Below the pieces are notes generated by a model that saw nothing but the letters and a program-made list of their open reading frames with translations, made no database searches and was not told where the DNA came from. DNA of 64,000 nt, from positions 1 to 64,000 of the forward strand of contig NZ_JAGTAR010000025.1 in the NCBI RefSeq assembly GCF_018156225.1, given 5' to 3'. This DNA comes from Carboxylicivirga sediminis. Lineage in GTDB: Bacteria; Bacteroidota; Bacteroidia; Bacteroidales; Marinilabiliaceae. The position numbers were made by a program, and so were the translations under genes. Shown here piece after piece: positions 44,892-62,087 of this stretch (position 1 is the first letter of the stretch; each line of letters starts with the position of its first letter).

Positions 44892-44921
44892 AATAAATGG
44901 ATTTTAAATTATTCGATGGCA

Positions 44922-44929
44922 CAAACATA
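44922..44929 (-). promoter_or_regulatory. -7 element for PUL1 susC
   Basis: On the minus strand TATGTTTG matches TAnnTTTG and lies about 31 bases before the ATG. The -33 element is weak, which is common at activator-dependent promoters. Confidence 0.5.
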
Positions 44930-44962
44930 AACGTCATTTGTTAACAAGTGCTAATACACATA

Positions 44963-45011
44963 CCTCATAAAGCCCTCACTCCACCTCTCCAACGACCTCA
45001 TTTTATCCTCA
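44963..45011 (-). promoter_or_regulatory. CCTCA direct-repeat array upstream of PUL1 susC (putative operator)
   Basis: On the plus strand CCTCA occurs at 44963, 44974, 44996 and 45007, with a CCTCT at 44984. The spacings are 11, 22 and 11 bases, so the repeats lie on one helix face. Relative to the predicted susC start (near 44915) the array spans about -48 to -96. The right pair, ACCTCATTTTATCCTCA, differs in only two positions from copies at 52251 and 61998. Confidence 0.5.
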
Positions 45012-45392
45012 TTTAACAACTACCTAACAACTCATATACTGACACTTAGGCATTTTTAAATTCTTAAAATAGCATACAATCGCCTCATTGGTGTATCTTT
45101 TACACTTACAGCCTTATTAGTATACATTTTTTAACACTTACTACTTTAAACCACCACGGTACAAGCTGAAAGAACGGAAGCGTACCTATAGGATTGATGA
45201 ATATCCGTAATAAGAGACATAATAATCTTAAGAGATTTCAAGAACCAATGCAATTTGGATGAGAACTAGTAGAAAATAGGTAAGCAGCGTCAGAACGGAA
45301 ACATCACAAATCCTTGCTGCATTAAAGAGATTTTTAGAAAGCTACAAAGGCACTAAAAACTGGATATATTGAAGCTCTGCTGTAATAAAGCT

Positions 45393-48281
45393 TTAGCCAA
45401 TAGATGCAATATATTCTGAAAGGTCATCGCCGGTTTTAAGCCCTAACTTCTGACGCAGTTTATAGCGGTTGTTTTCAACTGAGCGTGTACTAATATTCAT
45501 TAGTGAAGCAATTTCTTTAGAAGCCATCCCCATTTTGATATAAGCACATAACTTTTTCTCTTTATCGGTCAGTTCCATATGACGCTCAACTAGTTTATTG
45601 ATAAAGGTTTGATGTACTTGTTCGAATTGTCTTTCAAATAACTGCCAGTTACTTTCATTATCAATATCCTTACCAATCTTTTGTATCAAACTTTCTATTT
45701 TCCTTTCTGATTCATCCTGACCTTTGATGCGTTTAATACGTTTTAATTGACCTTGCAATTCAGATAGTAAGTCATTTTTTTGCACAATATGTACCGTTAG
45801 GCTTGCCAGCTCCTGTTCTTTAAACTGCATTTCACTGCGCAACTTCTCATTCCGCATCTTAATAACTTCCTGCTCTGCTTTGAGCGCCTCATTGGTCAGC
45901 TGCTCTTCTTTTTTCTTGTAGAAATCTTTAGCCTTCAGCTTTTCTTTCTGTCGGTTTATTTCTATACGCTTGTTTATGATGCCCACGGTACCAAGTAAGA
46001 CGATCAAACATAAGAGGACGTAAGCTAGCTTTGCATAGAAGGTTCGGTACCAGGGGGGCAGCACTCTAAATGAAATTGTATGTGGTATCGACTCTATTCC
46101 ATAACTATTGCGCGCTTTAACTGCAAACAAATACTCACCTTCACGCAGTTTACTGAACTGACGCTTATTCTCTGGTGTCCATTCTGTATACGTCTCATCC
46201 AAAGATGACAAGAAAGTAGCATATTCAATGTTGTCATCTCCAAAGAAGGCTGCTGCATATTCAACTTCAAACAGGTTATTCTTATACTTATATACCAAAT
46301 CATTAGAAGCATCAGCCTCTGAACTACCATTCTGGAAATAAGTATAGGCCAAACTATCACCCCTACCTTTAAAACTTCGAATGTGTACCTTGAATGGCTT
46401 CCTGAAATTTATGTAACTATGTAAATAATAATGTGCAAATCCATCCTCTATACCAAAAAACACATGAGATGAATCCGGAACACAAACTGATTCAAAGCTA
46501 CTCACCAGTTTATTTTTTAATGGAATAAAAGGAAGTATGATGTTTTTGTAATTATCAGCATCTGTATATTGAAGCAACTCGACATGTTCTGGGTAAAACA
46601 ACCATAAGTTCTTTAGCCCATCCTCAATAATTTGCGAAGGATACAACGATGCTTTAAAGAAAGCATCCAGCTTTTTATAAGGCTCTATAACGCCTATTTC
46701 ATTTAAACAAAACAGTCCTTTATCACCTACAATCACAATCTTTTGAGCAATTTTTGTCACCTTAACAGAAACGCTTTGCTTAAAATGCGTGGGTCCATAG
46801 ACTGCTGTTTTCAGTAAACTTTGGTAATCACTGGAAAAACTTAGCCGATATGCAGTGTCATAACCATCGGCTACCCATAAACGCCCCTGTTCATCCCAGT
46901 CCATAAAACGTGAAGGTTTATCAAATCCCTCCAGCTTTGTTTTGAATTTCCATCGCCCATTTTCCTTACTAAGTATAATCAGTCCTTCATATGTGCCACA
47001 AATAAGTTTATCAGAATGACCCGGTATAGGCAAAAACTTCCACACTCCGTTGACTGATGGCGGCGTTATTGAACGACTTTTTTCACCTATAACTTCGTAA
47101 ACACCTAAGTTATGACCACACAGTATATTTTCATCATCGTGGTATAAACTCCAAACCTGTCCTTCTGTACCACTAATTTTAATAAAATGAGTTCGTTCTT
47201 TCAGCGGATCTTCAAAACGTTTTTGATCAATTTTATAGAGGCCCTGATTAGTTCCAAAATACCAATCACCCTCATATTTTTGCTGAACATACCCCGTTCC
47301 AATATTATAATAGCCTGCTAAAAAGGAAATACTGCTATTAAGGCTGATTCGGGCAATGCCATTATCTAAACCACACCATACAGCTCCCTGATTGTCAACA
47401 AAAAGCCCGAGAACCGTATTATTCTTCAACCCTTTATCTTTTCCAATATGTAATAATAATTCACCTGACATATTGGTTACCAGCAGGCCTTTTTGGATAG
47501 TTCCAAACAGCATGGTTTCATCATTGTAACGTACTGCACAAAACACATTCGCCTCTGCCAATAATGAATTCACCGAACCTTTCCATTTCTCTATGGCAGT
47601 CATATCCCAGGTAAAGGCCCCATTATTCATAGTCGTAATTAGTAGTTTACTCTTTGATAAGGGGATGATAGAAGTAATGTACTTATCTGCAAAGAAATCC
47701 CCATTTACCAAAGGAAAAACTTCGTTACCACGCAATTCCATCAAGCCATTTTGCTCATCATATACAAGTAACATCTCATTTGCAAGAAAACAGGACACAA
47801 AGCGCGACAAGTTAGGAACGACACTAACAACGTAATCATCCTTTATAATTACTAAAGCCTTTTCGGTGTGTAACACTATTCGCTCATTCCATAGATATAT
47901 ATTCCACACATCACCAAGACTACGAAGGCTATCATTGGTAGCCAGCGAAACAAAGCGAAACTGTTGCAAAGAATCATATTCGAAGTAACCAAAATCGTTA
48001 TGAGCACCTGCATAAACCCTTTTGCCAATACACTTAACACTCCGAACAGCACCTGTTATAAACTTTCCATAACGTTGCCAGCGATTTCCATCAAACTCTA
48101 ACAATCCTTTATTATTGGCGACATATATCAGGTCATTATCACTTTGCGACACCTGCCAGTTTTGAGTGGCACCATCATACTGCCGCCTGTTAAAATACTC
48201 AACTTCAGGTATACCAAACGTTTGCCCCTGAATAGTGACACTCACTAATAATGTTAAAACAAGAAATAAAGCTCGATTCAT
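45393..48281 (-). CDS. Membrane-spanning propeller regulator with Y_Y_Y domain and LuxR-type HTH
   Basis: The 962-residue protein has a signal peptide (MNRALFLVLTLLVSVTIQG), then about 14 propeller-like repeats (YVANNKGLLEFDGNRWQRYG, WCGLDNGIARISL, RLWVADGYDTAYRL). A triple-tyrosine (Y_Y_Y) domain follows (FEVEYAAAFFGDDNIEYATFLSS, REGEYLFAVKARNSYG). One transmembrane helix near 770-790 (YAKLAYVLLCLIVLLGTVGII) and a coiled coil lead to a C-terminal LuxR/GerE helix-turn-helix (LTDKEKKLCAYIKMGMASKEIASLMNISTRSVENNRYKLR). It joins periplasmic sensing and DNA binding in one chain. It lies between the rus-like genes (45 bp) and PUL1 susC (501 bp), all on one strand, and most likely controls PUL1. 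Confidence 0.9.
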   Translation of the reverse strand: MNRALFLVLTLLVSVTIQGQTFGIPEVEYFNRRQYDGATQNWQVSQSDNDLIYVANNKGLLEFDGNRWQRYGKFITGAVRSVKCIGKRVYAGAHNDFGYFEYDSLQQFRFVSLATNDSLRSLGDVWNIYLWNERIVLHTEKALVIIKDDYVVSVVPNLSRFVSCFLANEMLLVYDEQNGLMELRGNEVFPLVNGDFFADKYITSIIPLSKSKLLITTMNNGAFTWDMTAIEKWKGSVNSLLAEANVFCAVRYNDETMLFGTIQKGLLVTNMSGELLLHIGKDKGLKNNTVLGLFVDNQGAVWCGLDNGIARISLNSSISFLAGYYNIGTGYVQQKYEGDWYFGTNQGLYKIDQKRFEDPLKERTHFIKISGTEGQVWSLYHDDENILCGHNLGVYEVIGEKSRSITPPSVNGVWKFLPIPGHSDKLICGTYEGLIILSKENGRWKFKTKLEGFDKPSRFMDWDEQGRLWVADGYDTAYRLSFSSDYQSLLKTAVYGPTHFKQSVSVKVTKIAQKIVIVGDKGLFCLNEIGVIEPYKKLDAFFKASLYPSQIIEDGLKNLWLFYPEHVELLQYTDADNYKNIILPFIPLKNKLVSSFESVCVPDSSHVFFGIEDGFAHYYLHSYINFRKPFKVHIRSFKGRGDSLAYTYFQNGSSEADASNDLVYKYKNNLFEVEYAAAFFGDDNIEYATFLSSLDETYTEWTPENKRQFSKLREGEYLFAVKARNSYGIESIPHTISFRVLPPWYRTFYAKLAYVLLCLIVLLGTVGIINKRIEINRQKEKLKAKDFYKKKEEQLTNEALKAEQEVIKMRNEKLRSEMQFKEQELASLTVHIVQKNDLLSELQGQLKRIKRIKGQDESERKIESLIQKIGKDIDNESNWQLFERQFEQVHQTFINKLVERHMELTDKEKKLCAYIKMGMASKEIASLMNISTRSVENNRYKLRQKLGLKTGDDLSEYIASIG

Positions 48282-48326
48282 GTACTTGGTTTCTTTGGCT
48301 AAGCCTAAGATATAAATTTTCGACTA

Positions 48327-50255
48327 TTAATAAACTTCCAACTCCCCTATACTCGTTGCAAACTCAAGGCCTAAATGTGCATTATTAGCATCTTTCTCAA
48401 TTCCTCCAGGTATACCTATAACTCTAATAGCAGTCGTTTCAATCGGATTAAAATCAATTGTATAAGATTGATAAACGGGCTTTAGCCATTGAGTATTATC
48501 TAAATTCATCTTTGGGGCAATGGATAAACCATTAACATTTTCCCAATGATCAACCGCCCAGAACTGCACATCAAATGAAGTAAACCATCCATAAAACTCG
48601 CTGGGCTTACCATTATTATATATCAACGATGAAACGGTCTGTAGTTCATCCCATTTATACCCATAGTAATCAGGGGATTTCTGCTCTGACTGTCTCCTAC
48701 CCATTAGTGAAGTTTTAGGATTACCATCACGCATTTGTTCCATATCATCAACATTGAAGATAGAATTTGAGATGATTTCATTAGCAGTATGTGCTTTATT
48801 ATTACTGAACACGCGAATAGTTACATCAATACTTTTTTCTTCTTCGGGATGCCTAGCTACAATCTTAAAGTGATAAAGTCCCTCTATTTCAGGTGTACCT
48901 GACAATTGTCCTTTCGTTAGACTGATGCCCAATGGCAGTTCGCCTTCTACCGATAAAGCTACCTCTTCTCCCCGGCCTGTATGAATAGGGTACGCAAATG
49001 GTTGTCCAATCCTTGCACTCATCTGAGGAATTGGATTAAGCTCAAATGGCGCTACAAAATTGGCTTCCAATGGAATTTTATAGTATAATTTACCCCCGAT
49101 TTCAACTTTCTCACCTCCCTGCGCCAATATAATCCTTTCTCCTTGTCGGACTGTGCGCGCAGCCAGCTCTGATATTTTCGCATCTGTCAGGCCCTCACGG
49201 GTTATCATTTTATAAGAATCATTGAATGGTTGTTCCCAATTAACTTCATTCAATGGGTACATTAGCTCCTTGGGAATACTTTCAAATCCATTTACCACCC
49301 CCAACAACCCACACATAGTAGCAGCCTGGTTGTCTGCATCCATTCCAAAAGCACAAGCATAATCCAATGTTTGCTGAAAATCGCCCTGGCCATATAATAA
49401 AGCCATAATTCCCAGGGCACCATTGAGCGTAGCATCTACTGCCGCCCAAGAGTGACGATTATAATCTTCAACCACGTAATACTTATCACACACATTTTGT
49501 CTGGCCAGCTGCCAATTGTCGGGATACAACGCATGCTGCTGCCTGACATACTCAACAGCATGGGCAAAACGGCTGTCAGGTGTCAAGGCCTTGTTTCCAA
49601 TTTTAATGAGTTCATTAATGTTTTTTTCAAAGAAGGCTGCACTGAACATGGCCGCATAATGAAGGGTTGGCTCCAAACCAAAATCATCGCTGGTTATGCG
49701 GGCGGCATATTCCGATTTAGCAACTGCATAATCAATCATTCCGGGTGCCGTAATAGCCCAAATTTCATTCACCAGCTGTGGATCAATCTGAAACCATTCA
49801 CTATTAAAACTCTTATCTCCCGTCACTGGCGGATAATGGCCCGCATGCATCAAAGTAACAGCCATGCGATTGGCAAACCATATACGTTCCTTAACATGTC
49901 CTTTCCAGGCTTCAGTCAACTGATAATAGGAAGGTTCAATACCATGTTTCTCCATCTGTGTCAGGTACATGTATTCAATATCCGTATCATCATCGGAGAA
50001 AGCGCCATCGTGCCTGCGCAAATCTTCTAAAGTAAAATCATATCCATAAGGAAAACTATCGGGCCCTGCCTCATCAATGTACTTAAACTCATAACCCAGT
50101 CCGTAAGTATTGCCGATTATCTGCCCAATCCAGGATGCATAAACGGCATCGTTATAATCCTCTACTAAAAGGTATTGGTAATATGTCCCTTCACTTCTAT
50201 CGTGACACGAAAAGCAAACGACTATAAAACAGAGTATTGGTATTAGCTTCTTCAT
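48327..50255 (-). CDS. ADP-ribosylglycohydrolase family lipoprotein (RusGH-like)
   Basis: The 642-residue protein has lipobox CFSC. The ADP-ribosylglycohydrolase domain (about 30-350) starts with DAVYASWIGQIIGNTYGLGYE. Its metal-binding motifs are DDDT at residues 88-91 and GMDADNQAAT with Asp306 and Asp308. Residues about 420-500 look like an Ig-like He_PIG domain (LPLGISLTKGQLSGTPEIEG). The C-terminus is a discoidin-like sheet. ARH-type enzymes hydrolyse N- or O-ribosyl bonds. As a lipoprotein it would act in the envelope on extracellular ribosides. Its start overlaps the ribokinase stop by 4 bp. A similar enzyme belongs to the Bacteroides rus ribose locus. Confidence 0.88.
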   Translation of the reverse strand: MKKLIPILCFIVVCFSCHDRSEGTYYQYLLVEDYNDAVYASWIGQIIGNTYGLGYEFKYIDEAGPDSFPYGYDFTLEDLRRHDGAFSDDDTDIEYMYLTQMEKHGIEPSYYQLTEAWKGHVKERIWFANRMAVTLMHAGHYPPVTGDKSFNSEWFQIDPQLVNEIWAITAPGMIDYAVAKSEYAARITSDDFGLEPTLHYAAMFSAAFFEKNINELIKIGNKALTPDSRFAHAVEYVRQQHALYPDNWQLARQNVCDKYYVVEDYNRHSWAAVDATLNGALGIMALLYGQGDFQQTLDYACAFGMDADNQAATMCGLLGVVNGFESIPKELMYPLNEVNWEQPFNDSYKMITREGLTDAKISELAARTVRQGERIILAQGGEKVEIGGKLYYKIPLEANFVAPFELNPIPQMSARIGQPFAYPIHTGRGEEVALSVEGELPLGISLTKGQLSGTPEIEGLYHFKIVARHPEEEKSIDVTIRVFSNNKAHTANEIISNSIFNVDDMEQMRDGNPKTSLMGRRQSEQKSPDYYGYKWDELQTVSSLIYNNGKPSEFYGWFTSFDVQFWAVDHWENVNGLSIAPKMNLDNTQWLKPVYQSYTIDFNPIETTAIRVIGIPGGIEKDANNAHLGLEFATSIGELEVY

Positions 50256-51166
50256 TTTGATTTTGATAATTCATTAATAAATGGAATCGAAGGTTGTGCG
50301 CCTCTCCGGGTAACTGCGATGGCCGCAGCATTCTTCGCCACTTCAATCGCTTCAGTGATTGCAACATTATCGGATAAACAACTCGCCAGGTAGCCACAGA
50401 AAACATCTCCGGCAGCTGTTGTATCTATGGCCTTAACCTTTTGAGCTGTTATAATTTGTTCATTCTCATTTTTCATTTTTTGCAGTACCCCTTGTGCTCC
50501 CATTGTCAATATAACTGCCTCATCCACATGAACCAGTAACTCTGAAACAACACGTTTTTTACTCTCCATATCGAGAAGCTGACGACCAGACAACTGCTCT
50601 GCTTCAGTTTCATTGGGTATTAGAATATCAACCAGCTTAAGTAAATCATGACTTAATATGCCAGCCGGTGCTGGATTAAGAATGGTTTTTACACCGTATT
50701 TTTTAGCCAGAGCCAGAGCCGTTTTTACTGTTTCTAATTGAATTTCCAATTGGACTAACAATACATCTGCTGATCGAATGACATCTTCCAGGCCTTTTAC
50801 CTCATCAGGCAGCAGAGCCGCGTTTGCGCCACTCACTACTATAATTGAATTTTCGCCAGTAGTCTGATCCACGGTGATCATTGCCACACCAGTTGATAAT
50901 TGGTCATCAACCAAGACATGACTCGTATCTATGCCATCCTCCTGATAGGCACTGATGGCATTTTGTCCAAATTCATCGTTGCCCACCTTGGCAATAAATG
51001 TAACCTGAGCTCCTGCTCTGGCAGCGGCTACAGCCTGGTTAGCACCTTTTCCACCCTGATGAACAATAAAGACTGTTCCAAAGACTGTTTCGCCCGGCTT
51101 AGGCATTGTGGCAGTTGTCACTACCATATCTGTATTGCTACTTCCTATAACTACAACTTTTTCCAT
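50252..51166 (-). CDS. rbsK: Ribokinase
   Basis: The 304-residue PfkB-family kinase phosphorylates ribose to ribose 5-phosphate. Ribokinase marks are VVIGSSNTDMVV, VHQGGKGANQAVAAARAGA, DEFGQNAISAYQEDGIDTSHV, ILNPAPAG and IPNETEAEQLSG. The catalytic DTTAAGDVFCGYLA carries the anion-hole GD with the base Asp. It is cytoplasmic. It lies 5 bp after the transporter gene and overlaps the ADP-ribosylglycohydrolase gene by 4 bp, so the three are coupled. The pairing with a riboside-cleaving lipoprotein supports ribose as the substrate. Confidence 0.93.
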   Translation of the reverse strand: MEKVVVIGSSNTDMVVTTATMPKPGETVFGTVFIVHQGGKGANQAVAAARAGAQVTFIAKVGNDEFGQNAISAYQEDGIDTSHVLVDDQLSTGVAMITVDQTTGENSIIVVSGANAALLPDEVKGLEDVIRSADVLLVQLEIQLETVKTALALAKKYGVKTILNPAPAGILSHDLLKLVDILIPNETEAEQLSGRQLLDMESKKRVVSELLVHVDEAVILTMGAQGVLQKMKNENEQIITAQKVKAIDTTAAGDVFCGYLASCLSDNVAITEAIEVAKNAAAIAVTRRGAQPSIPFINELSKSK

Positions 51167-51171
51167 GGCAA

Positions 51172-52170
51172 CTACTGTTTTGCAATGATAATTAGCGAAA
51201 GACCAAGTAAAAAGGATAAAAACATTACCGTCAATAATCCATTGGTGCCTTTGGGGCTATTCTTAAATTCCTTCCAAACAAATACTCCCCAGATAGCCGC
51301 CACCAAAGTGGCTCCTTGACCTAAACCATAGGAAATGGCATAGCCCGCTTTCTCGCCCGACATGATACTTAGCAACATCCCCATACACCAAATAACCCCA
51401 CCAAGTATGCCAATAGCATGCAGTTTGATTGAGCCATTTTTGAAGTAATTGGAAAAAGTAATAACAGGTCCACTCACTGGTCGTTTCATTAAAATAGTAT
51501 TAAATAAAAAGCTAGATATAAACACCCCTATTGAAAAAACAAAAACTGCCGTATAGGGCGTTAATGTACCTGATTCAATATTTTTAAAAGAAGGCGACAT
51601 TGATTCGGCCACAAACCGATAGAAAAACGACATTAAAAGGCCTGCGACCAATGAAATAAATATCCCTTTATTGGACCTTACATCCTGACGCATCTTTTTA
51701 TATGCCAAAGCATTAATGATTATAGCCATCACAACCAGGCCTACACCAGCAAATAACACAAAGGAGTTATAAGCCTCGGGATGGGGAATAAAATTGACAA
51801 ACACCCCTAAAACCAGGGCAAGACCAATGCCTATGGGGAACGCTACAGCCATCCCAGCCAAATCTATGGCTACGACCAGTAGTAAATTAGCGAGATTAAA
51901 AAGGACACCTCCCAATAAAGCCAGCGCGAGTATCCTGGGAGTACTCTGTGATAAGTTTTCTATAAAGCTTTGCCCTGTTGCGCCTGATGAACCAAAGGAC
52001 AGACCAAAGAGTAAACTCAGGATTATTATCCCCAAAGAATAGTCCCAATAAAAAAGTGTAAAACTCCAGGATTTGGATGCAAGCTTTTGCGTGTTGGCCC
52101 ATGAGCCCCAGCACACCATTGTTAGAATGCAAAAAAGCACTGCTGTCAGGTAATTTTCTACCACATACAT
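51172..52170 (-). CDS. Sugar transporter of the GRP/DMT family (RusT-like)
   Basis: The 332-residue integral membrane protein has about ten helices. Typical glucose/ribose porter features are CWGSWANTQKLASKSWSFTLFYWDYSLG, GGVLFNLANLLLVVAIDLAGMAVAFPIGIGLALVLG and GGVIWCMGMLLSIMSGEKAGYAISYGLGQGATLVAAIWGVFVWKEF. It would move a free monosaccharide across the inner membrane. The ribokinase encoded 5 bp downstream points to ribose. It is the first gene of a three-gene operon. A CCTCA repeat pair lies 82-97 bp upstream of its ATG. Confidence 0.9.
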   Translation of the reverse strand: MYVVENYLTAVLFCILTMVCWGSWANTQKLASKSWSFTLFYWDYSLGIIILSLLFGLSFGSSGATGQSFIENLSQSTPRILALALLGGVLFNLANLLLVVAIDLAGMAVAFPIGIGLALVLGVFVNFIPHPEAYNSFVLFAGVGLVVMAIIINALAYKKMRQDVRSNKGIFISLVAGLLMSFFYRFVAESMSPSFKNIESGTLTPYTAVFVFSIGVFISSFLFNTILMKRPVSGPVITFSNYFKNGSIKLHAIGILGGVIWCMGMLLSIMSGEKAGYAISYGLGQGATLVAAIWGVFVWKEFKNSPKGTNGLLTVMFLSFLLGLSLIIIAKQ

Positions 52171-52251
52171 AATTACTGAATTTCTGTTAGCGAACTATTG
52201 CAAGAATACTATAAATAGATGGTTTGAACCAGTACATGTGGCTCTATTGCA

Positions 52252-52267
52252 CCTCATTTTTACCTCA
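52252..52267 (-). promoter_or_regulatory. CCTCA direct-repeat pair in the rusT/DUF6377 divergent region (putative operator)
   Basis: CCTCA at 52252 and 52263 are 11 bases apart. The 17-base block ACCTCATTTTTACCTCA (52251-52267) is identical to 61998-62014. On the minus strand a TATTCTTG (52208-52201, one mismatch to TAnnTTTG) would place the pair about -58 to -73 from the transporter start. Confidence 0.45.
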
Positions 52268-52322
52268 CTTTTAGAGTTTTTTTATCACCTTTAGGTTCAA
52301 TGACTATTCAGACGATTTATTT

Positions 52323-52330
52323 TATATTTG
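52323..52330 (+). promoter_or_regulatory. -7 element for the DUF6377-like regulator
   Basis: TATATTTG matches TAnnTTTG and ends 19 bases before the ATG at 52350. No clear -33 TTTG was found. Confidence 0.45.
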
Positions 52331-52349
52331 AATCAAATAAATCTCAATC

Positions 52350-53999
52350 ATGCGCCATTTTATATTTCTTCTTGTTTTCTTAATTCTGCCTTTACAAGGG
52401 TACTGCCAGCAAATAGATTCCTTATTATCTATACTTGAAACTACGATTACCCAAAGAAGCAGTTACGATAAAGTGCGCTTAACAAGAATAGAAGATCTTA
52501 AAAGAAATCTGAGTAAAGGGAATATGACAGCAGAACGCAAGTTCTATCTTCAGCAATTACTTATTGAAGAATATGAGCCTTTCAACTTCGATTCCACTCA
52601 ACATTATTTAAATCTCAACAAGCAGCTTACTCATGAGCTAAAAAGCTTAGCCCTAACAAACTCTATCTCCTTAAAAATGGCCAAGATATTAGCTAGTTCA
52701 GGACGCTATTTTGAAGCAATAGAATATTTAAATGAGTTAGAATACAACTCATTATCACAATCAGATTTAAAGAACTATTATAGTAATTTAATTAAAATAT
52801 ATACCGATCTGGCCATTTACAGTCCAATTCACGAAACATACAGAAAATATTCAGGCATAGCACAATCATATACTGATAGCTTATCTGTCCTATTAAAAGA
52901 GGGCACAGAAGAGTATCTTGCAATTGAAGAGAAAAGATTCAGAGATAAACGATTATTCAACGAAAGTAAACGAATTAACGATCAACGATTAGCATTGACA
53001 ACTCCAGGAAGCAGACAATACTCTCTAGTTACTTTCGAGCGTTCGTTAATATATGAATTAAAAGGAAATGTTAGTGAGCGAAAAAAATATCTGATTTTAT
53101 CAGCCATTTCCGACATTCAATCAGCAGTAAAAGATAATGCATCTTTAACAACCTTGGCCTTAATACTGCATAAAGAAGGAGATATCAATAGAGCCTATCG
53201 CTTTATTAAATTTGCATACGAAGATGCGTCTTTTTATAACTCGAGGCTACGCTTTACTCTTATCTCAAATATTCTGCCGGTTATCAATGAGGCTTACCAA
53301 ATAAGGGTTGAAAAACAGAAGAAGAAGTTACGCTCTTTTCTATTTATTATTAGTTGCCTGTCAGGTTTTTTACTTATTGCAATATATTTCATTTACAGAC
53401 AACTGAAAACACTTAACCGGGCACAGTCCGAATTGGTTAATGCTAATGAGCAGCTGAAGAGATTGAATAACAGCCTCAAAGAGAAAAACCAAACGCTTAA
53501 TGTTCTAAATGAGGAGTTGTCCGAATCAAACCTTGTGAAGGAACATTATATTGCCAATTTCCTTAGTATCTGTTCTAACTACATCGATAAACTAGATAGG
53601 TTGAATAAAGGCATTGGTAAGCAAATTAATGCTGGCAAGGTTGAGGACTTATTCAAACAAAGTAAATCGCGAAAGTTGATGGACCAGGAATTGAAAGAGT
53701 TCTATCAGAATTTTGATGATATCTTCCTACATATCTATCCGCACTTTGTAGAGGAAGTAAATAACTTATTACAAGAAGGTGAAGAGATCATGCTTAAAAA
53801 GAACGAAACACTCAATACTGAACTTCGCGTATTTGCACTTATTCGATTAGGTATTAATGACAGTTCTCGCATTGCTAAATTATTACGTTACTCGGTCAAC
53901 ACGATTTACAATTACAGGGTAAAAATTAAAAATAAGGCCAAAGGCAATCGGGATGAATTTGAACAGAACATTATGAGAATTGATGCTGTCAAATCATAA
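52350..53999 (+). CDS. DUF6377-like transmembrane regulator of PUL2
   Basis: The 549-residue protein has a signal peptide (MRHFIFLLVFLILPLQGYCQ). A helical, TPR-like periplasmic region (about 25-320) precedes one transmembrane helix (FLFIISCLSGFLLIAIYFIYR) and a coiled coil (LVNANEQLKRLNNSLKEKNQTLNVLNEEL). The cytoplasmic end carries LNTELRVFALIRLGINDSSRIAKLLRYSVNTIYNYRVKIKNKA, which looks like a helix-turn-helix of the LuxR kind. This layout fits the DUF6377 family of Bacteroidota, found beside susCD genes. It is 256 bp upstream of PUL2 susC on the same strand and is its likely regulator. The family name is recalled rather than searched. Confidence 0.78.
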   Translation: MRHFIFLLVFLILPLQGYCQQIDSLLSILETTITQRSSYDKVRLTRIEDLKRNLSKGNMTAERKFYLQQLLIEEYEPFNFDSTQHYLNLNKQLTHELKSLALTNSISLKMAKILASSGRYFEAIEYLNELEYNSLSQSDLKNYYSNLIKIYTDLAIYSPIHETYRKYSGIAQSYTDSLSVLLKEGTEEYLAIEEKRFRDKRLFNESKRINDQRLALTTPGSRQYSLVTFERSLIYELKGNVSERKKYLILSAISDIQSAVKDNASLTTLALILHKEGDINRAYRFIKFAYEDASFYNSRLRFTLISNILPVINEAYQIRVEKQKKKLRSFLFIISCLSGFLLIAIYFIYRQLKTLNRAQSELVNANEQLKRLNNSLKEKNQTLNVLNEELSESNLVKEHYIANFLSICSNYIDKLDRLNKGIGKQINAGKVEDLFKQSKSRKLMDQELKEFYQNFDDIFLHIYPHFVEEVNNLLQEGEEIMLKKNETLNTELRVFALIRLGINDSSRIAKLLRYSVNTIYNYRVKIKNKAKGNRDEFEQNIMRIDAVKS

Positions 54000-54021
54000 T
54001 TCTTACTATTCTTATAACTCA

Positions 54022-54070
54022 AAAGTGGAAAAATAGCTTCATTTATCACCAAAGAACATCCACTTTTTTA
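54022..54070 (+). terminator. Possible terminator after the DUF6377-like gene
   Basis: AAAAGTGGA at 54022-54030 pairs with TCCACTTTT at 54060-54068 and runs into a T-stretch. The loop is 29 bases, so it is a moderate call. Confidence 0.5.
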
Positions 54071-54255
54071 AGGATGACGTAAATTATCATAGCACACATA
54101 ATCAGGCTATTGATATTTTAATACATCTACTTTTTTACTACCCACTTTCGTTATTCATTTCTCAAACTTGTCTTTTTACTCTCAGTTAAAATCCGGCGTT
54201 TGAATATCAAATAAATCGGATTTGTAAATCGAGTAATAACACAAATTCAAGTTTA

Positions 54256-57222
54256 ATGAAGAAACATCTTTACAAATCTATCCAAAGAGCTTTGTATAGA
54301 ATACCGATGCTTATACTGTTATGCATATTTTCTATACTAACAATTCATGCTCAAAACCTCACCATTACCGGGAAGGTAACAGATTCATCAGGCCAACCAA
54401 TTCCGGGTGCATCCATTGTGATTAAAACAACCACTATTGGGACAATCAGTGACATAGATGGAAACTATAGTTTAACCGGAGAGCTTTCTCCTGAAAGTAT
54501 CTTAGTCTATAGTTTTGTTGGAATGAAGACACAAGAGGTTTTAGTTGGTAATCAAGCAACTATTGATGTAACCATGCAAGATGATGTGCATGGTCTGACA
54601 GAAGTAGTCGTTGTAGGGTATGGTACACAGGAGAAGAAGGATATTACTGGTTCTGTTGCTTTGGTCGGAGCGGATGAACTGGAGTCTCGACCTAATACTC
54701 AGTTGGGGTCATTAATCCAGGGACGTGCTGCGGGTGTGCGGGTAGCATCCAGTTCTGGTAAGCCTTCGCAAGGTTTAAGTATACGTGTGCGTGGCACCAA
54801 TTCAATTACTGCAGGCAGCGAACCTCTATATGTGGTTGATGGCATACCTACAAGTGACACCCGTTCAATCAATCCTGCAGATGTTGAAACAATGACTGTA
54901 TTGAAGGATGCTTCATCCGCTGCTATTTATGGGGCGCAAGGAGCAAATGGGGTAGTGCTTATCACCACTAAACAGGGAACGTCGGGTAAGCCTAAAGTAA
55001 CCCTGGATGCTTATACAGGTTTTTCTGAAGTTTGGAATACCCTGAGTGTACTGAATGGCGAACAATACAGAGACTTGATGACAGAGATGGGGCAATCAAC
55101 TGATTGGAACCGCTACAACAAAAATACTGACTGGCAAAAAGAGATCTTTCAGAGGGGCATCTCTCAAAACTACCAGTTGTCATTATCAGGTAAGAGCGAG
55201 CAAACTACCTACTATGTTTCTGGCGGTTGGGTGCAACAGGTAGGTGCAGTGCGCAGTTCAGAAATGGATCGTGCCAACTTTAAAATTAATCTGGATCAGG
55301 AAGTTAATGACTGGTTAAGCATTGGTACACGCATTGCCTATACCAGGTACCGCGATGTTGATGTCAATGACAATAATGCGATTAACCAAGGCGGTGTTAT
55401 CACAGGTGTTATCAACACACCATCGGTCATAGGGATTTACAATGAAGATGGAACCTTCACTAGCAATCCATTTCAAAACTGGGAAAACCCGGTTGCTAGC
55501 ACCGATGGTTCCGATCGCGAATATCGCCAGGAGCGTTTCCTTGGCAATTTGTATCTGAAAATCAAATTTCTGAAGGATTTTAGCATTAAATCAAATTTTG
55601 GTGTTGATTACAGCAATGGTATCTATGATTACTTTCTCGATCCTTACAGAACCAGTTATGGTCAGGCAAAAAAAGGCATTGGTACAAATAACACTGATCG
55701 CTCAAGCTACTGGATGGCAGAAAATATCCTTTCATACAATAAAAAAACAGGCAAGCATTCCATTGAAGCTCTGGCAGGTAACGTGGTACAAAAGTATTTG
55801 TGGGAGAATGCTTATATAACTACAGAGAATTTTGCCAGTGATGGAGTAAAAACAACTAATGGAGGCTCTATCATTGCATCGGCTGGTAATACAAAGGCCG
55901 AGAAATCGAATGTCTCATACATTAGTCGTTTAAACTATGTATTTGATGATAAGTACTTATTAACCGCCAACTTCCGGGCCGATGCATCAAGTGTCTTTGG
56001 AGCCGATAATCGTTGGGGATATTTCCCATCATTTTCTGCCGGCTGGCGTATCTCGCACGAAGGTTTTATGAACGATTTTGACTTCCTTAATGATTTGAAA
56101 GTACGCGCTGGATGGGGTATTGTAGGTAATGATCAGATTCGAAACTATGCCTATTATGGAACCGTTGGTTCAAATAATTACCCAATTGGCGGCACTCTAA
56201 TGCCTGGCACTTATCCCAATGCAATGGATAACAATAGTCTGAAATGGGAAGAATCAGAACAAACCAATATTGGATTAGATATTAGTGTATTAAATGGACG
56301 GATTCAGTTAACGGCAGATGCTTATCATCGCAAAACACGTGATTTGTTGCTGGATGCCCCACTTCCAATAAGTACAGGCTACCAGGCTGCGTTACAAAAT
56401 ATTGGTAATCTCGAAAATAAAGGTCTGGAATTTAGCCTTAATACAGTTAATATCGATAAAGAAGTGAAGTGGAGCAGTACTTTCAATATCTCATTTAACC
56501 AAAATGAAGTAACCAACCTGGTTGTTGAAAGTTTGCCAATGGGTAATATTGCCGGACGTGGCGAAGCCATTCTTTTAGAGGAAGGCCAGTCGCTGGGGAC
56601 TTTATATGGATATGTTTGGGGTGGTGTTGATCCGGCTACGGGTAATGCCTATTACATCGATGCCAACGGAGAAAGTACTTTTACCCCAACGGCTGATGAC
56701 CGCCAAATTATTGGTAATGCTAGTCCTGATTTTTTCTATGGATTGAATAACACAGTTAGCTATAAAGGCATTGGCTTAACTGTATTTTTAGAAGGTGCTT
56801 ATGGCAATGATATGCTGAATGCTACTCGCATTGACTCAGAAGGCATGACTGATCCAAAGAATCAGCTGTTAACCGTTAATAACCGTTGGAGGCAGCCTGG
56901 TGATGTAACGGATACCCCAAGAGCAAGCTGGGCCAATACCGACAACTCGCTCATATCAACACGCTTTATCGAAGATGGTTCGTATCTGCGTCTTAAAACT
57001 GTTACCCTAAGTTACGACATACCCCAAAGTATTTTGTCTAAAGTCAACTTGTCCAATGTACGTTTGTATGCAACCGGAGAAAACCTGCTAACTTTTACCG
57101 ATTATTCGGGCTTTGATCCGGAAGTCAATGCATTTGGCGGTTCCAACACCATGCAGGGCATTGATTATGGCACCTATCCGCAAACACGAAATATCATTTT
57201 CGGATTGAACGTTACTTTTTAA
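54256..57222 (+). CDS. SusC/RagA family TonB-dependent outer-membrane transporter (PUL2)
   Basis: The 988-residue protein has a long SusC-type leader (MKKHLYKSIQRALYRIPMLI, then a hydrophobic segment). Next are a CarboxypepD_reg domain (TITGKVTDSSGQPIPGASIVIKTT), the TonB-box region LTEVVVVGYGTQEKKDITGSV, and a plug (GVRVASSSGKPSQGLSIRVRG, TMTVLKDASSAAIYGAQGANGVVLITTKQG). A barrel ends in FGLNVTF. It shares the overall plan of the PUL1 SusC but is 87 residues shorter and clearly diverged. It should import beta-glucan fragments captured by the SusD encoded 18 bp downstream. Confidence 0.97.
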   Translation: MKKHLYKSIQRALYRIPMLILLCIFSILTIHAQNLTITGKVTDSSGQPIPGASIVIKTTTIGTISDIDGNYSLTGELSPESILVYSFVGMKTQEVLVGNQATIDVTMQDDVHGLTEVVVVGYGTQEKKDITGSVALVGADELESRPNTQLGSLIQGRAAGVRVASSSGKPSQGLSIRVRGTNSITAGSEPLYVVDGIPTSDTRSINPADVETMTVLKDASSAAIYGAQGANGVVLITTKQGTSGKPKVTLDAYTGFSEVWNTLSVLNGEQYRDLMTEMGQSTDWNRYNKNTDWQKEIFQRGISQNYQLSLSGKSEQTTYYVSGGWVQQVGAVRSSEMDRANFKINLDQEVNDWLSIGTRIAYTRYRDVDVNDNNAINQGGVITGVINTPSVIGIYNEDGTFTSNPFQNWENPVASTDGSDREYRQERFLGNLYLKIKFLKDFSIKSNFGVDYSNGIYDYFLDPYRTSYGQAKKGIGTNNTDRSSYWMAENILSYNKKTGKHSIEALAGNVVQKYLWENAYITTENFASDGVKTTNGGSIIASAGNTKAEKSNVSYISRLNYVFDDKYLLTANFRADASSVFGADNRWGYFPSFSAGWRISHEGFMNDFDFLNDLKVRAGWGIVGNDQIRNYAYYGTVGSNNYPIGGTLMPGTYPNAMDNNSLKWEESEQTNIGLDISVLNGRIQLTADAYHRKTRDLLLDAPLPISTGYQAALQNIGNLENKGLEFSLNTVNIDKEVKWSSTFNISFNQNEVTNLVVESLPMGNIAGRGEAILLEEGQSLGTLYGYVWGGVDPATGNAYYIDANGESTFTPTADDRQIIGNASPDFFYGLNNTVSYKGIGLTVFLEGAYGNDMLNATRIDSEGMTDPKNQLLTVNNRWRQPGDVTDTPRASWANTDNSLISTRFIEDGSYLRLKTVTLSYDIPQSILSKVNLSNVRLYATGENLLTFTDYSGFDPEVNAFGGSNTMQGIDYGTYPQTRNIIFGLNVTF

Positions 57223-57240
57223 TTCTTAAACCGAAACATC

Positions 57241-58737
57241 ATGAATTTTAAAACATATATAATAGGGGGCCTAATCGTATTATCTGCCTGGTCGTGCGAT
57301 GATTTCCTGGAACTTAAGCCCTTGTCAGAAGAGACCACAGCGACTGCATATACAAAACTGAGCCAAATTGAAGCCGCCTTAACAGGTGCCTATGAATCTT
57401 TCCAGTCAGATGCCTATGTATGGAACAATGTACAATTTCAGGATGTACGCTCTGATAACCATTATGCAGGTGGAGATAATCCATCCTTTTACGAAATAGA
57501 TTATCTGGATATTTCTGCTACCAATGACAAAGTCAATCAAAGCTGGGGCAATATCTATAATGCCATATTAAAAGCGAATATTGTTCTGGAACGAGTTGAT
57601 GATGTTACGGATCCATTATTAACGGAGAAGCGCAAAAAGGAAATCATTGGCGAAGCCTTGTTCTTAAGAGCTTATCACTACTACAACCTGGTTAATTTAT
57701 ATGGAGGAGTGCCACTTATTTTGGAAGCAACAAAATCAACCGATGCGGGTAGCGTTAACATTCCTCGCTCAAGCGCTGAGGAGGTATTTGCGCAAATCAT
57801 TTTGGATTTAGATGAAGCCAGCAAGATTTTACCAGATAACTATGGTAATAATGCTGCTGTGAACAAAGCGCGCGCTACTGCCGGTGCTGCCTGGGCATTA
57901 ATGGCTAAAGCCTATGCTCAAAAACCATCACCTGAATATAATAAAGTACTGGAGTGTATTGATGAAGTTGAGAAGAGTGCTGCTAATTATAAACTGATTG
58001 ATTACACCCATCTGTTTGACGGGGCACATTATAACAATGATGAATCAATTTTAGAAGTGCAATGGATAGCTGGTTCTGATGGCAATTGGGGGCCACAGCT
58101 ATTGTTGCCACCTTCAATAAGTGGTGATTCGTGGCGCAAGTTTGTAACTCCTTCAAAAGACCTGGTAGAGGCTTTTGACGCTGAAGGTGATGAGATACGT
58201 AAAAATGCAACCATCCTCTTTGAAAATGTTGCCTGGATTGATGAATACTATGGTATTGATGAACCAAGTGATGGTAATGCTATGCCAAACAGTGTGGCAT
58301 TTGGTTACAAATGGAAACATGCCGATGGATGGTCAAGTGGCAATCGACAATACCTGTTGCGCTATGGCGACATCGTATTACTAAAAGCTGAAGCTTTAAA
58401 TGAAACGAATGAATTAGCATTAGCTGTTGCAGAGGTAAATCGCATCCGCAATCGTGTTTCATTGGATGATTTGACTGACGAGCAAAAGAGCTCCAAAGAG
58501 GTAATGCGACAAACCATTCTCAATGAACGTCGACTGGAGCTGGCACAGGAAGCGCAGCGCTGGGACGATTTGGTACGCTATGGCGTAGTGGTAGAAACCA
58601 TGAACAATCTGGTTGAAATTGACTTACGCAATGCTCAGGCTATTGATTACAATATGACAAGCGATAAAACTCTTTTGCCTATCCCGCAGCAGGAACTGGA
58701 TCGAAACCCAAATCTAACGCCTAATCCATCAAACTAA
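57241..58737 (+). CDS. SusD/RagB family glycan-binding lipoprotein (PUL2)
   Basis: The 498-residue protein has lipobox AWSC (near residue 19). SusD features are DDFLELKPLSEETTATAYTK, LTGAYESFQSDAYVWNN, GEALFLRAYHYYNLVNLYGGVPLIL, YGDIVLLKAEALNETNE, VNRIRNRV and ILNERRLELAQEAQRWDDLVRYG. It forms the surface lid of the SusC transporter encoded 18 bp upstream and precedes the SusE-like gene by 5 bp. Confidence 0.96.
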   Translation: MNFKTYIIGGLIVLSAWSCDDFLELKPLSEETTATAYTKLSQIEAALTGAYESFQSDAYVWNNVQFQDVRSDNHYAGGDNPSFYEIDYLDISATNDKVNQSWGNIYNAILKANIVLERVDDVTDPLLTEKRKKEIIGEALFLRAYHYYNLVNLYGGVPLILEATKSTDAGSVNIPRSSAEEVFAQIILDLDEASKILPDNYGNNAAVNKARATAGAAWALMAKAYAQKPSPEYNKVLECIDEVEKSAANYKLIDYTHLFDGAHYNNDESILEVQWIAGSDGNWGPQLLLPPSISGDSWRKFVTPSKDLVEAFDAEGDEIRKNATILFENVAWIDEYYGIDEPSDGNAMPNSVAFGYKWKHADGWSSGNRQYLLRYGDIVLLKAEALNETNELALAVAEVNRIRNRVSLDDLTDEQKSSKEVMRQTILNERRLELAQEAQRWDDLVRYGVVVETMNNLVEIDLRNAQAIDYNMTSDKTLLPIPQQELDRNPNLTPNPSN

Positions 58738-58742
58738 ATACG

Positions 58743-60458
58743 ATGACAATGAAAACATTTAAGAAACATATATTGTGGGCAGCTTTGCTAATGCTCACGC
58801 TGTGGAGCTGCGAGGAGAAAAGCAATCTGCAGCCAGAAGGCAACTGGGATTTGAGTGCTCCAGCGTTAATGCCTTTAAATGGTGATAATAAATTAGTGCT
58901 TGATGAAGCGAATCCACATGGTAAAATTACTTTTAATTGGGAAGCAGCGGTTTCATCAGCTAAATATGGGGTGTATTATACTGTTGTAATCGATTCGTTG
59001 AATGCAAGCGATGTGAATCAACCAATCATTCAATTCAAGTCACTGGAAGGCGGTAAGAGCAACAGCGCTTCAATTACCAATCTGGAGCTGAACGATGCTT
59101 TATACATGGCAGGCTTCCTCCCCGGGCAGGAGCTGGAATTACAATGGGCTGTTCAAGCCGTGTGCTTATCAAAGATGACAAGTGATGAAGCCGATGTTAC
59201 TGTTACCCGTTACGATGATGATAAACTATTTTTATCAGGTAGCGCAACCGAAGTGGGTGATAATGTAACTAATGCTATCAAGATGATGCGACTAAGCAAT
59301 GGTGCAGGTGAAAAGCTGAAGTTATACGAGTCATACACTGAGCTTAAAGCCAATGAAGGCTTTATGGTTTTTAATGGTCGTAGTGAAAATGCCATTGCCT
59401 ATGGCGTGGACAACGAAGGCAAATTAGTTCGTGATGGTCAACCTATCACCGTTGATGCAGATGGTGTGTATCGCATCAATATTGATTTCGAGACCATGAG
59501 TATCTCATTCCATAAAGTCGATCGCCTGGGACTGATTGGTTCGCCACTTGCCGGAGGTTGGGGAGCCGATGAGGCTCTGGAATATATAGGTATGGGTGTT
59601 TGGCAAAGCGATATAAGTTTCCCGGGAACAGGTGGCTACATCATACGTGCCAATAACAACTGGGAAGGCATTATCAAACACAAAAGCGGTAGCGTGAACG
59701 ATGTTGTCCGCGAAGATTTTGGTAACGAACAGGGTATTGCTTTTGAAGATTTTCAGCAAAATGAAGCTGGTTTATATACTGTTACATTAACACTTGATGG
59801 CAATAATTACACAATGAATCTGGAGAAAGCTCCTGAGCAACGTATGTATGTTATTGCCAACGGCACTGATGCTTATGAGCTAACCATGGTTGGCGATGGC
59901 ATTTTTGCAACCACCAGCTACATTGCACTGCAAACAACAGACAATGTACTTGTTAACACCAAGGCAGATGGAAGCGGAATCAGCTACAGTATCAGCGATG
60001 CTATGGGACAAGGTGATGATAACAAAGTGGAGGCGACCGCAAGCATGTCTGAAAGTACAACTCCTTTCTCCCCTGTTGTGGATCAGGCTTATGGTTTTGT
60101 GATAGATGTTAAAACAGGCGAACTAAAGTGGCACTACTACAACCTGAAACTCTTCCACTGGGATGAAGTTGGTGGTGGTTGGGATACCCGAACAGAAACC
60201 TTATTAAGCTATTCGCATCCTTTCACATTTACAGCAACTGCTGACTTACAGGCCGGTTATCACTCGAAGGTATTCTCGCCATGGGAAATCTTGTTTGGAG
60301 CAGCAACAAGTGAAGATGTAAATGCATTAAGTGGAAACATGCTCAATGATGGCGGTGCAGCCAATATAGATAACATATCTACCTCTGGCTCTTATGATTT
60401 TACACTAACCATTACAGCTGATTATTCAACAGGAACCTTCGAATTTGTATCTAAATAA
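58743..60458 (+). CDS. SusE/SusF-like surface glycan-binding lipoprotein (PUL2)
   Basis: The 571-residue protein has lipobox LWSC. The N-terminal SusE domain (APALMPLNGDNKLVLDEANPHGKITFNWEAA) is followed by repeated SusE/F starch-module-like domains with the pattern LFLSGSATEVGDN, then LGLIGSPLAGGWGADEALEYIGMGVWQSDISF and RMYVIANGTDAYELTMVGDGIFAT. Such proteins bind polysaccharide at the cell surface and are not catalytic. The start may be the ATG at 58743 or the one at 58749. A strong hairpin lies after the stop codon. Confidence 0.9.
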   Translation: MTMKTFKKHILWAALLMLTLWSCEEKSNLQPEGNWDLSAPALMPLNGDNKLVLDEANPHGKITFNWEAAVSSAKYGVYYTVVIDSLNASDVNQPIIQFKSLEGGKSNSASITNLELNDALYMAGFLPGQELELQWAVQAVCLSKMTSDEADVTVTRYDDDKLFLSGSATEVGDNVTNAIKMMRLSNGAGEKLKLYESYTELKANEGFMVFNGRSENAIAYGVDNEGKLVRDGQPITVDADGVYRINIDFETMSISFHKVDRLGLIGSPLAGGWGADEALEYIGMGVWQSDISFPGTGGYIIRANNNWEGIIKHKSGSVNDVVREDFGNEQGIAFEDFQQNEAGLYTVTLTLDGNNYTMNLEKAPEQRMYVIANGTDAYELTMVGDGIFATTSYIALQTTDNVLVNTKADGSGISYSISDAMGQGDDNKVEATASMSESTTPFSPVVDQAYGFVIDVKTGELKWHYYNLKLFHWDEVGGGWDTRTETLLSYSHPFTFTATADLQAGYHSKVFSPWEILFGAATSEDVNALSGNMLNDGGAANIDNISTSGSYDFTLTITADYSTGTFEFVSK

Positions 60459-60463
60459 ATAAG

Positions 60464-60500
60464 AGAGTGGAGTCCAATTAATGTTATTGGACTCCACTCT
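60464..60500 (+). terminator. Strong hairpin between susE-like gene and GH30
   Basis: A perfect 15-bp stem (AGAGTGGAGTCCAAT with ATTGGACTCCACTCT) with a 7-base loop lies five bases after the susE-like stop. It is not followed by a T-run, so it may protect or process the mRNA rather than end it. Confidence 0.55.
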
Positions 60501-60520
60501 TACTAATAATAAGCAGGAAG

Positions 60521-61972
60521 ATGAACCAAAGAATTATTCGACTAATCACTCCTATTCTACTAATCATTATACTGGGCCTAATGGGTGCCCGATGTCAAAA
60601 GGAAGAGCGTATTACACCTCCTCCTCCGGTTATGCCCGATGCATTAGATATATCCATGCGCTTATCAACCTACGATGGCGTAAGTAAGTTTAGTCAGCAG
60701 GATATCAAGTTTTATGCTATTGAACCCAATAATAATCCAACCATAAGCATTACAGCTGAATCAAAATACCAGGTGATGGATGGTTTCGGATACACTTTAA
60801 CAGGCGGCAGTGCCATGCATTTGAAAAAAATGAGCGACAGTAAGCGCAGTCAGCTGCTGTATGAATTATTTAATAATGAAGATGATAATATAGGTGTGAG
60901 CTATTTGCGCATCAGCATTGGTGCTTCTGATTTAGATGCTGCTCCATTTTCATATAACGACTTGCCCGCAGGTCAAACTGATGAGGAGATGACGCAATTT
61001 TCACTAGTTCCGGATAAGCAATACCTGATTCCTGTTCTGAAAGAAATTTTAGCGATTAATCCTGACATCAAAATTTTAGGCTCTCCATGGTCTCCTCCCA
61101 CCTGGATGAAAGACAACGGTGCTACCAAAGGCGGTGAGCTACTAAAAGAGTATTACCAGGCTTATGCAAAGTACTTTGTTAAGTATGTTCAGGAAATGCA
61201 AAAAGAAGGTATTATCATTGATGCCATTACAGTTCAAAACGAACCATTGCACCCCGGTAATAACCCAAGCTTGTATATGTCGGCAACAGCTCAGGCTGAG
61301 TTTATCAAAACGGCTTTAGGGCCTAATTTTGAAGCTGCTAATATCAGTACTAAAATAATTATATACGACCATAATGCTGATAAACCTGAATATCCGATTT
61401 CCATCTTGAACGATGTCGAAGCTAAGCAATTCATCGATGGTTCTGCCTTCCATTTATACGGTGGCGACATTGATAACCTGAGCCAGGTACACAATGCGCA
61501 CCCGGATAAGAATCTATATTTCACAGAACAGTGGATTGGCGCACCGGGTAGCTTTGGTGATGATATGGTTTGGCATACGCGTAACCTAATAATCGGAGCA
61601 CCTCGCAATTGGTGCCGCAATGTATTGGAGTGGAACCTGGCAGCCAACTCCGCTTTGGAGCCTCATACTGATGGCGGCTGCACCAAGTGTCTTGGAGCCT
61701 TGACCATCGATGGAGATAAGGTGGTGCGCAATCCGGCTTATTATATTATTGCTCATGCCTCAAAATACGTAAGTCCTGGTTCGGTCCGTATTGAAAGTAA
61801 TATTCCAAACAACTTACCCAATGTGGCCTTCCTGACACCCGACAATAAGATTGTTGTTATTGTATTGAACGAAAGTGATAGCGAACAGCAATTTAACATT
61901 GAGCTGGGTGAACAACTCACCAGTACAAAGCTGGCTGCTAAAGCTGTGGCTACTTACGTTTGGAAACAGTAA
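60521..61972 (+). CDS. GH30 beta-1,6-glucanase-like lipoprotein
   Basis: The 483-residue protein has lipobox GARC (near residue 25). The GH30 barrel and side beta-domain show YQVMDGFGYTLTGGSAMHL, YLRISIGASDLDAAPFSYND, ILGSPWSPPTWMKDNG, acid/base Glu241 in AITVQNEPLHPGNNP, FHLYGGDI and nucleophile Glu336 in LYFTEQWIG. These match the GH30_3-type endo-beta-1,6-glucanases, though the subfamily was not tested. It follows the SusE-like gene behind a strong hairpin and would cut beta-1,6-glucan outside the cell. Confidence 0.88.
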   Translation: MNQRIIRLITPILLIIILGLMGARCQKEERITPPPPVMPDALDISMRLSTYDGVSKFSQQDIKFYAIEPNNNPTISITAESKYQVMDGFGYTLTGGSAMHLKKMSDSKRSQLLYELFNNEDDNIGVSYLRISIGASDLDAAPFSYNDLPAGQTDEEMTQFSLVPDKQYLIPVLKEILAINPDIKILGSPWSPPTWMKDNGATKGGELLKEYYQAYAKYFVKYVQEMQKEGIIIDAITVQNEPLHPGNNPSLYMSATAQAEFIKTALGPNFEAANISTKIIIYDHNADKPEYPISILNDVEAKQFIDGSAFHLYGGDIDNLSQVHNAHPDKNLYFTEQWIGAPGSFGDDMVWHTRNLIIGAPRNWCRNVLEWNLAANSALEPHTDGGCTKCLGALTIDGDKVVRNPAYYIIAHASKYVSPGSVRIESNIPNNLPNVAFLTPDNKIVVIVLNESDSEQQFNIELGEQLTSTKLAAKAVATYVWKQ

Positions 61973-61977
61973 CAAAA

Positions 61978-62014
61978 ACTCATTTTAACCACACCAAACC
62001 TCATTTTTACCTCA
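61978..62014 (+). promoter_or_regulatory. CCTCA direct-repeat array upstream of the second GH30 (putative operator)
   Basis: ACTCA at 61978, CCACA at 61989, CCTCA at 61999 and CCTCA at 62010 are spaced 11, 10 and 11 bases. The last pair lies in ACCTCATTTTTACCTCA, identical to 52251-52267. A TAAGTTTA box (62055-62062, one mismatch to TAnnTTTG) would place the array about -55 to -91 from a start near 62069. Confidence 0.45.
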
Positions 62015-62087
62015 TCATACATAACAAACCGTGACTTGATTAGCCTGTAAAAGCTAAGTTTATAACAATTACTAAAAAACAACCATT

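Follow-up and report, generated by a model that had tools for sequence, protein, structure and literature searches.

A helix-phased repeat as the candidate operator of a propeller/LuxR-type regulator in Carboxylicivirga sediminis

Which protein reads a phased CCTCA repeat that stands before three separate sets of genes in Carboxylicivirga sediminis? The stretch analyzed here, called the window throughout, comprises the first 64,000 nucleotides of contig NZ_JAGTAR010000025.1 (RefSeq assembly GCF_018156225.1), and the repeats lie upstream of the susC gene of polysaccharide utilization locus 1 (PUL1), of a rus-like run of genes and of a second GH30 gene (GH30b). We propose, with a probability of roughly 0.8, that a transmembrane one-component regulator, the product of 45393-48281, has its operator in these repeats and would serve all three. 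The motif, its phase, its distance to promoter-like words and its link to one protein clade can be read directly from the genomes.

44963..45011, minus strand: site 1, in front of PUL1 susC, with four TGAGG half-sites at 0, 11, 33 and 44 bp that make up the pairs 44996-45011 and 44963-44978
52251..52267, minus strand: site 2, TGAGGTAAAAATGAGGT, upstream of a run encoding a transporter, a ribokinase, an ADP-ribosylglycohydrolase-like protein (ADPRGH) and the regulator, with a divergent SusR-like gene on the other side
61998..62014, plus strand: site 3, ACCTCATTTTTACCTCA, in inverse orientation, upstream of GH30b, with a degenerate pair at 61977-61993
45393..48281, minus strand: proposed regulator, a propeller/Y_Y_Y/LuxR protein by Pfam, AlphaFold2 and PDB match

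Phased repeats and the protein clade they accompany

The window holds four exact CCTCA-N6-CCTCA pairs, all read on the plus strand (44963-44978, 44996-45011, 52252-52267 and 61999-62014), against a mean of 0.105 and a maximum of 1 on both strands of 200 window shuffles. The 17-mer ACCTCATTTTTACCTCA occurs exactly at 52251-52267 and 61998-62014 and nowhere else in the 5.81-Mb assembly, and the block at 44995-45011 differs from it by two mismatches. A preliminary description of this DNA had reported these positions, the identity of the two 17-base blocks, the two differences in the third and the orientations (TGAGG at the first two sites, CCTCA at the third), all of which we reproduce. It had also drawn site 3 as an array, of which the exact pair stands; the block at 61977-61993 is weak (three mismatches to the 17-mer), leaving one good pair and a degenerate pair 21 bp away. 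The bare 10-base pattern is not rare, with 10 matches genome-wide, and the argument therefore depends on context and conservation. The conserved promoter element has a consensus close to TGAGGT-N5-TGAGGT, of which the source genome has two copies, both within the window.

From public genomes we collected 80 loci, of which 44 at ≥34% identity to the regulator were scanned (L152, where the regulator end is absent, was left out) and 35 at 29-32% formed a comparison set. Within 1.6 kb downstream of the regulator, TGAG(G/T)-N6-TGAG(G/T) is found on the plus strand, here that of the regulator, in 33 of the 44 loci and on the minus strand in 2, while 300 shuffles gave a mean of 0.37 loci and a maximum of 3; shuffles served as the control because TGAGT-N6-TGAGT fits both the forward and the reversed reading of the pattern. 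The pair goes with susC: of the 34 loci with susC after the regulator, 31 have it in front of that gene and the remaining three have degenerate arrays, and it is absent from all eight loci with no susC found in the examined flank. Two further loci, whose contigs end within 500 bp, carry the pair and were left out of the two-by-two table of susC presence against motif. The spacing spectrum of TGAG pairs across the 44 loci (5-40 bp) peaks at 11, 22 and 33 bp on one strand.

Conservation extends to the other sites. C. mesophila (G011), whose regulator is 94% identical to that of the window, keeps all four CCTCA pairs. Ten further genomes (G001, G002, G005-G008, G010, G013, G015 and G019) have two paired (C/A)CTCA words, one or both of them CCTCA, in the same flank of their best propeller ortholog, and G003, G004, G012, G014 and G021 have a weaker pair. 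By contrast with this clade, none of 20 propeller paralogs (23-28% identity) from seven Carboxylicivirga-group genomes has the motif; 20 regions were read for that scan, with two rows set aside, a 49% paralog that carries a TGAGT pair (L192) and a locus where no propeller open reading frame (ORF) was found, likewise without the motif (L204). A FastTree phylogeny, built with every third comparison locus (12) and 15 paralogs and leaving out L151, gathers the motif-linked proteins into one clade of 44 rows with SH-like support of 100, made up of 33 with the motif, 3 with degenerate arrays and 8 without susC nearby.

This distribution bears on an alternative in which the repeats are bound by the SusR-family protein encoded at 52350-53999. 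Site 2 lies within the upstream region of that gene, a copy in G010 sits between a SusR-like gene and the susC of a starch PUL, and in G001 and G007 the SusR-like gene and ADPRGH share a motif-bearing intergenic region. However, the motif tracks the propeller clade, G006 and G008 carry it beside the propeller gene yet have no match to the SusR-like protein (E 0.001), the interval from the SusR-like gene to its own susC at 54256 holds no copy even when two mismatches are allowed, and the two boxes predicted for SusR proteins are 67 or 77 bp apart rather than 11, 22 or 33 bp in the range examined here, according to Ravcheev et al. (PMC3878776), which concerns long-spaced motifs of SusR and of hybrid two-component systems (HTCS). 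We rejected SusR as the main binder and regard this alternative as unlikely.

Distance to promoter-like words

The preliminary description had placed candidate TAnnTTTG-like starts about 50-95 bp downstream of the repeats, and boxes resembling a -7 element do follow each site.

44922..44929, minus strand: -7 box TAnnTTTG of PUL1 susC, 82 bp from the first TGAG
44940-44944: conserved TTAAC near the PUL1 susC promoter
52201..52208, minus strand: -7-like box TATTCTTG of the rus-like run
62055..62062, plus strand: -7-like box TAAGTTTA of GH30b, 56 bp from the first CCTCA

We aligned 34 sites, the window and 33 others, in which the half-sites at 0 and 11 bp are present by selection. Most of them repeat TGAG/TG words at 33 and 44 bp; 27 continue with TTAAC (66-67 bp) and 23 with TA-N2/3-TTTG (79-82 bp). 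In Geofilum and AS08 the TTAAC and box words stand at 56 and 70 bp, one helical turn nearer, and the remaining sites are without the exact word. At the rus-type site, TAnnCTTG lies 59 bp away in the window, C. mesophila, C. marina and C. sp. M1479, a spacing that places it in the same 11-bp register as the susC site (81 minus 22). For the inversely oriented GH30b site, the distance to a TAnnTTT(A/T/G) box is 56 bp in C. mesophila, G007, G008 and the window. Scanning 44850-45420 for sigma-70 sites returned four, against 2.4 in shuffles, and none at the proposed -7 box.

Counting both registers of the TTAAC word, 29 of the 34 aligned sites share it in a GTTAAC-like form (44940-44944 in the window), 27 at 66-67 bp and 2 at 56 bp; it falls between what would be the -33 and -7 regions.

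The element occupies an activator-type position and, in most sites, keeps a fixed distance to promoter words, which would also suit a global factor, such as a sigma factor or a CRP-like protein, the link to the propeller gene then being mere neighborhood; the element does occur away from the regulator gene. We consider this very unlikely: the 20 paralog genes of the same genus are without the element, and across 24 genomes TGAGGT-N5-TGAGGT never exceeds two copies per genome and appears mainly where a close regulator ortholog (≥58%) is encoded (6/6 genomes, versus 1/18 others, G032). The simple AT-rich spacers and the near-chance overall counts of the motif could instead point to a functionless sequence repeat or an RNA element, but the element lies upstream of a -7-like box, its spacing peaks and it is conserved across genera, which makes this reading highly improbable. 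An RNA element was rejected after an Rfam search over 44500-62500 gave no match at the gathering score.

Sites in trans and the weight of motif counts

The layout deduced beside the regulator also predicted targets in trans. In 7 of 10 genomes the regulator is encoded apart from susC, and in six of these seven (G040-G044 and G046) an array precedes a susC homolog elsewhere, with TTAAC at 65-66 bp. Additional sites lie before GH16 homologs in Geofilum, M. salmonicolor and ANBcel2, before GH3 homologs in Geofilum and Alkaliflexus and, again in Alkaliflexus, before a protein partly similar to the GH5-CBM6 protein of the window, placements that are consistent with a beta-glucan regulon; several other looser-form matches in the ten genomes have no such gene context. 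Within the genus, the motif stands before rus-like/ADPRGH genes in all six genomes with a close ADPRGH ortholog, and a relaxed form before GH30b in 8 of the 10 genomes having that gene. Across the 24 genomes TGAGGT-N5-TGAGGT has 12 copies, and of the 11 in the six close-ortholog genomes 10 are beside regulator, ADPRGH or GH30b genes and 1 is before a starch-type PUL in G010.

Several results weigh against a single dedicated regulator. Many of the 44 loci are close relatives, so that 33 of 44 does not amount to 33 independent events. No convincing copy lies beside the family-level orthologs G017 (42%), G020 (40%) and G016 (35%). By eye, G001 and G007 show no box at 59 bp from the rus-type site, and the 56-bp GH30b spacing holds in only 4 of 8 genomes, the other four being without it. 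The GH30b motif itself is absent from 2 of the 10 genus genomes and from all 4 genomes outside the genus, G045 has no looser-form match, and the G010 copy before the starch-type PUL is beside a SusR-like gene. Counts are little help either: in the six close-ortholog genomes a reversed control gave 8 hits against the 11 of TGAGGT-N5-TGAGGT, and in the ten genomes of the trans comparison the looser form gave 46 matches against 37 (38 of the 46 were inspected, 30 given as loci and 8 picked by a T-rich spacer or tandem place).

Motif numbers are thus near chance, and it is placement that carries the case. Allowing up to two mismatches, the window itself has 42 matches where 42.2 are expected. Of the 10 genome-wide matches to the bare pattern, the window holds 4, two related ORFs are followed by 3, 2 are intragenic and 1 overlaps a sensor-like gene at its start; matches outside the window mostly make no promoter sense, and a genome-wide regulon from loose patterns was dropped. 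Nor was one drawn from the 17-mer with up to three mismatches (38 genome matches, 28 for the reversed control). The genome-wide density test of the preliminary description is not decisive, with counts near chance and positions that are not. Its suggestion of one regulator, perhaps the propeller/LuxR protein, is supported by the clade link, the motif-free paralogs, the spacing kept in most sites and the six of seven trans arrays. The link it drew between glucan and riboside use is supported as well: the motif does precede the rus-like/ADPRGH and GH30b genes, with 'riboside' a label taken from gene families only, among which the ribokinase passed its model.

The proposed regulator, its predicted circuit and its relatives

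The regulator has an N-terminal signal-peptide-like helix (by eye), a propeller region, Y_Y_Y, one long helix that fits a membrane span, a coiled coil and a LuxR-type (GerE) helix-turn-helix (HTH). Pfam recognizes GerE (residues 903-949, 31.7 bits against a cutoff of 23.5) and Y_Y_Y only, with no histidine kinase, receiver, AraC HTH or autoinducer domain. The AlphaFold2 model (mean pLDDT 80.4, pTM 0.64, residues 779-834 poor) has a long propeller region, the membrane-fitting helix at 748-782, further long helices and the HTH, and the closest solved structure is the heparin sensor BT4663 (top PDB matches 4a2l, 3v9f and 3ott). Around it lie the following genes.

41664..44891, minus strand: PUL1 susC
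39805-41541: PUL1 susD, downstream of susC
After susD in PUL1: a protein without Pfam match, GH5-CBM6, GH16, GH16, GH3, GH5, GH3, endonuclease/exonuclease/phosphatase, GH31
48327..52170, minus strand: rus-like genes, then the regulator gene
51172-52170: ureide-permease-type transporter, rus-like run
50252-51166: ribokinase, rus-like run (TIGR02152 score 348.7 bits, cutoff 299.65)
48327-50255: ADPRGH, rus-like run
52350..53999, plus strand: SusR-family regulator (DUF6377; NF058541 score 586 bits, cutoff 480)
62088..63554, plus strand: GH30b

We infer that a glycan fragment is sensed in the periplasm by the propeller and Y_Y_Y region. The membrane helix and coiled coil would link this region to the cytoplasmic HTH, whose predicted targets, judging by their geometry, are TGAGGT half-sites lying every 11 bp along the same face of the DNA. 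At susC, two pairs three helical turns apart stop a few bp short of the presumed -33 region; bound there, the protein would recruit RNA polymerase or position it. The rus-like operon would be served by a single pair, about -59 to -41 relative to the -7 box, and the second GH30 by one in inverse orientation. Transporter, ribokinase, ADPRGH and regulator form a four-gene operon-like run (gaps of 5, -4 and 45 bp); since site 2 precedes this run, whose last gene is the regulator, positive autoregulation is likely and is the simplest reading. GH5, GH16, GH3 and GH31 make PUL1 look like a laminarin-type beta-glucan set, and the regulon would thus join beta-glucan uptake and hydrolysis with ribokinase-type genes in a predicted feedback loop.

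The HTCS of Bacteroides (BT4663, BT3049 and BT4673) share with the regulator a periplasmic propeller and Y_Y_Y sensor and a susC neighbor, but differ in having a histidine kinase, a receiver and an AraC HTH in place of the LuxR-type HTH. The resemblance to the SusR family (BT3705; NF058541) is that of a membrane one-component activator of susC-type operons, as described in PMC3878776, whereas the propeller protein has no NF058541 match (E 0.001) and its neighbor at 52350-53999 passes. With LuxR/NarL-type regulators the protein shares a GerE domain. Dimeric proteins of that type usually sit on inverted repeats, unlike the direct repeats here, and the regulator is without their receiver or autoinducer domain by Pfam. 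OmpR/PhoB-type sites are 11-bp direct repeats with tandem half-sites once per helical turn; the likeness is one of geometry alone, as the HTH is unrelated. The rus locus of Bacteroides contains a susC/susD pair; that of B. thetaiotaomicron shares sugar transporter and ribokinase-type genes with the window operon, which ends in the propeller regulator and is without such a pair. In its accessible part, PMC12596196 describes the B. thetaiotaomicron Rus PUL (BT2803-2809) and RusT, with no LuxR protein there.

Few Bacteroidota glycan regulators have known DNA sites. Searches of open-access papers, which mostly reached no further than listings, turned up none for propeller/LuxR-type regulators. Vibrio XylRA is the subject of PMC12125979 and the AraC-type CgrA that of PMC5698469, while LuxR-annotated genes in laminarin-type clusters are given without sites (PMC13188888). 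The promoter layout described here, with its half-sites, spacing and -7 box, is precise enough for base-by-base tests and makes an uncharacterized kind of regulator testable.

Propeller/Y_Y_Y/LuxR proteins could, more tentatively, make up another large class of glycan receptors in Bacteroidota, one that reads tandem sites phased with the DNA helix and whose half-site varies with the recognition helix; if so, a protein-to-site code could assign targets to many orphan regulators. In 43 of the 44 Marinilabiliaceae-type loci the recognition helix is (V/I)(E/D)NNR(Y/S), together with TGAGGT-N5-TGAGGT, and in 30 of the 35 homologs of about 30% identity, mainly from Sphingobacteriaceae, it is VEIRRY. 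In the first few hundred bp past the propeller stop of the latter (L157-L191), CTACATCATnACCTCTC comes just after the stop in 30/35 loci and an inverted relative, TGATGTAnTAATGTn(G/T)AG, in 20/35, these words having been read by eye off the loci on which they were then counted, with no shuffle control behind the counts. The exact-repeat spectrum of these flanks has no 11-bp peak, which speaks against such a code.

Some single loci deserve mention. The window genome encodes a second member of the regulator clade (49%; L192:2581-2596, G000:C56) with TGAGTTTAATGTGAGT, in which T replaces the G of the window sites, and this base difference may insulate the two proteins. Alkalitalea (L134) and Natronoflexus (L135) have an extra inverse-orientation TGAGGTAAAAATGAGG 212-217 bp past the regulator stop, about 140 bp before the susC array. 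G010 has the identical 17-mer (L255/L301, G010:C108:54442-54458) with a SusR-like gene on one side and, on the other, a starch-type PUL comprising susC, susD, SusE, CBM26, alpha-amylase and GH97, which is outside the beta-glucan theme. The CCTCA arrays downstream of two related ORFs of the window genome (L001/L002, G000:C47:33520-33546; L003, G000:C48:46346), by eye mobile-element primase/helicase-like, are probably unrelated. A further CCTCA pair (L009, G000:C80:24095-24110) overlaps the start of a gene that by eye is propeller-sensor-like and divergent from another ORF.

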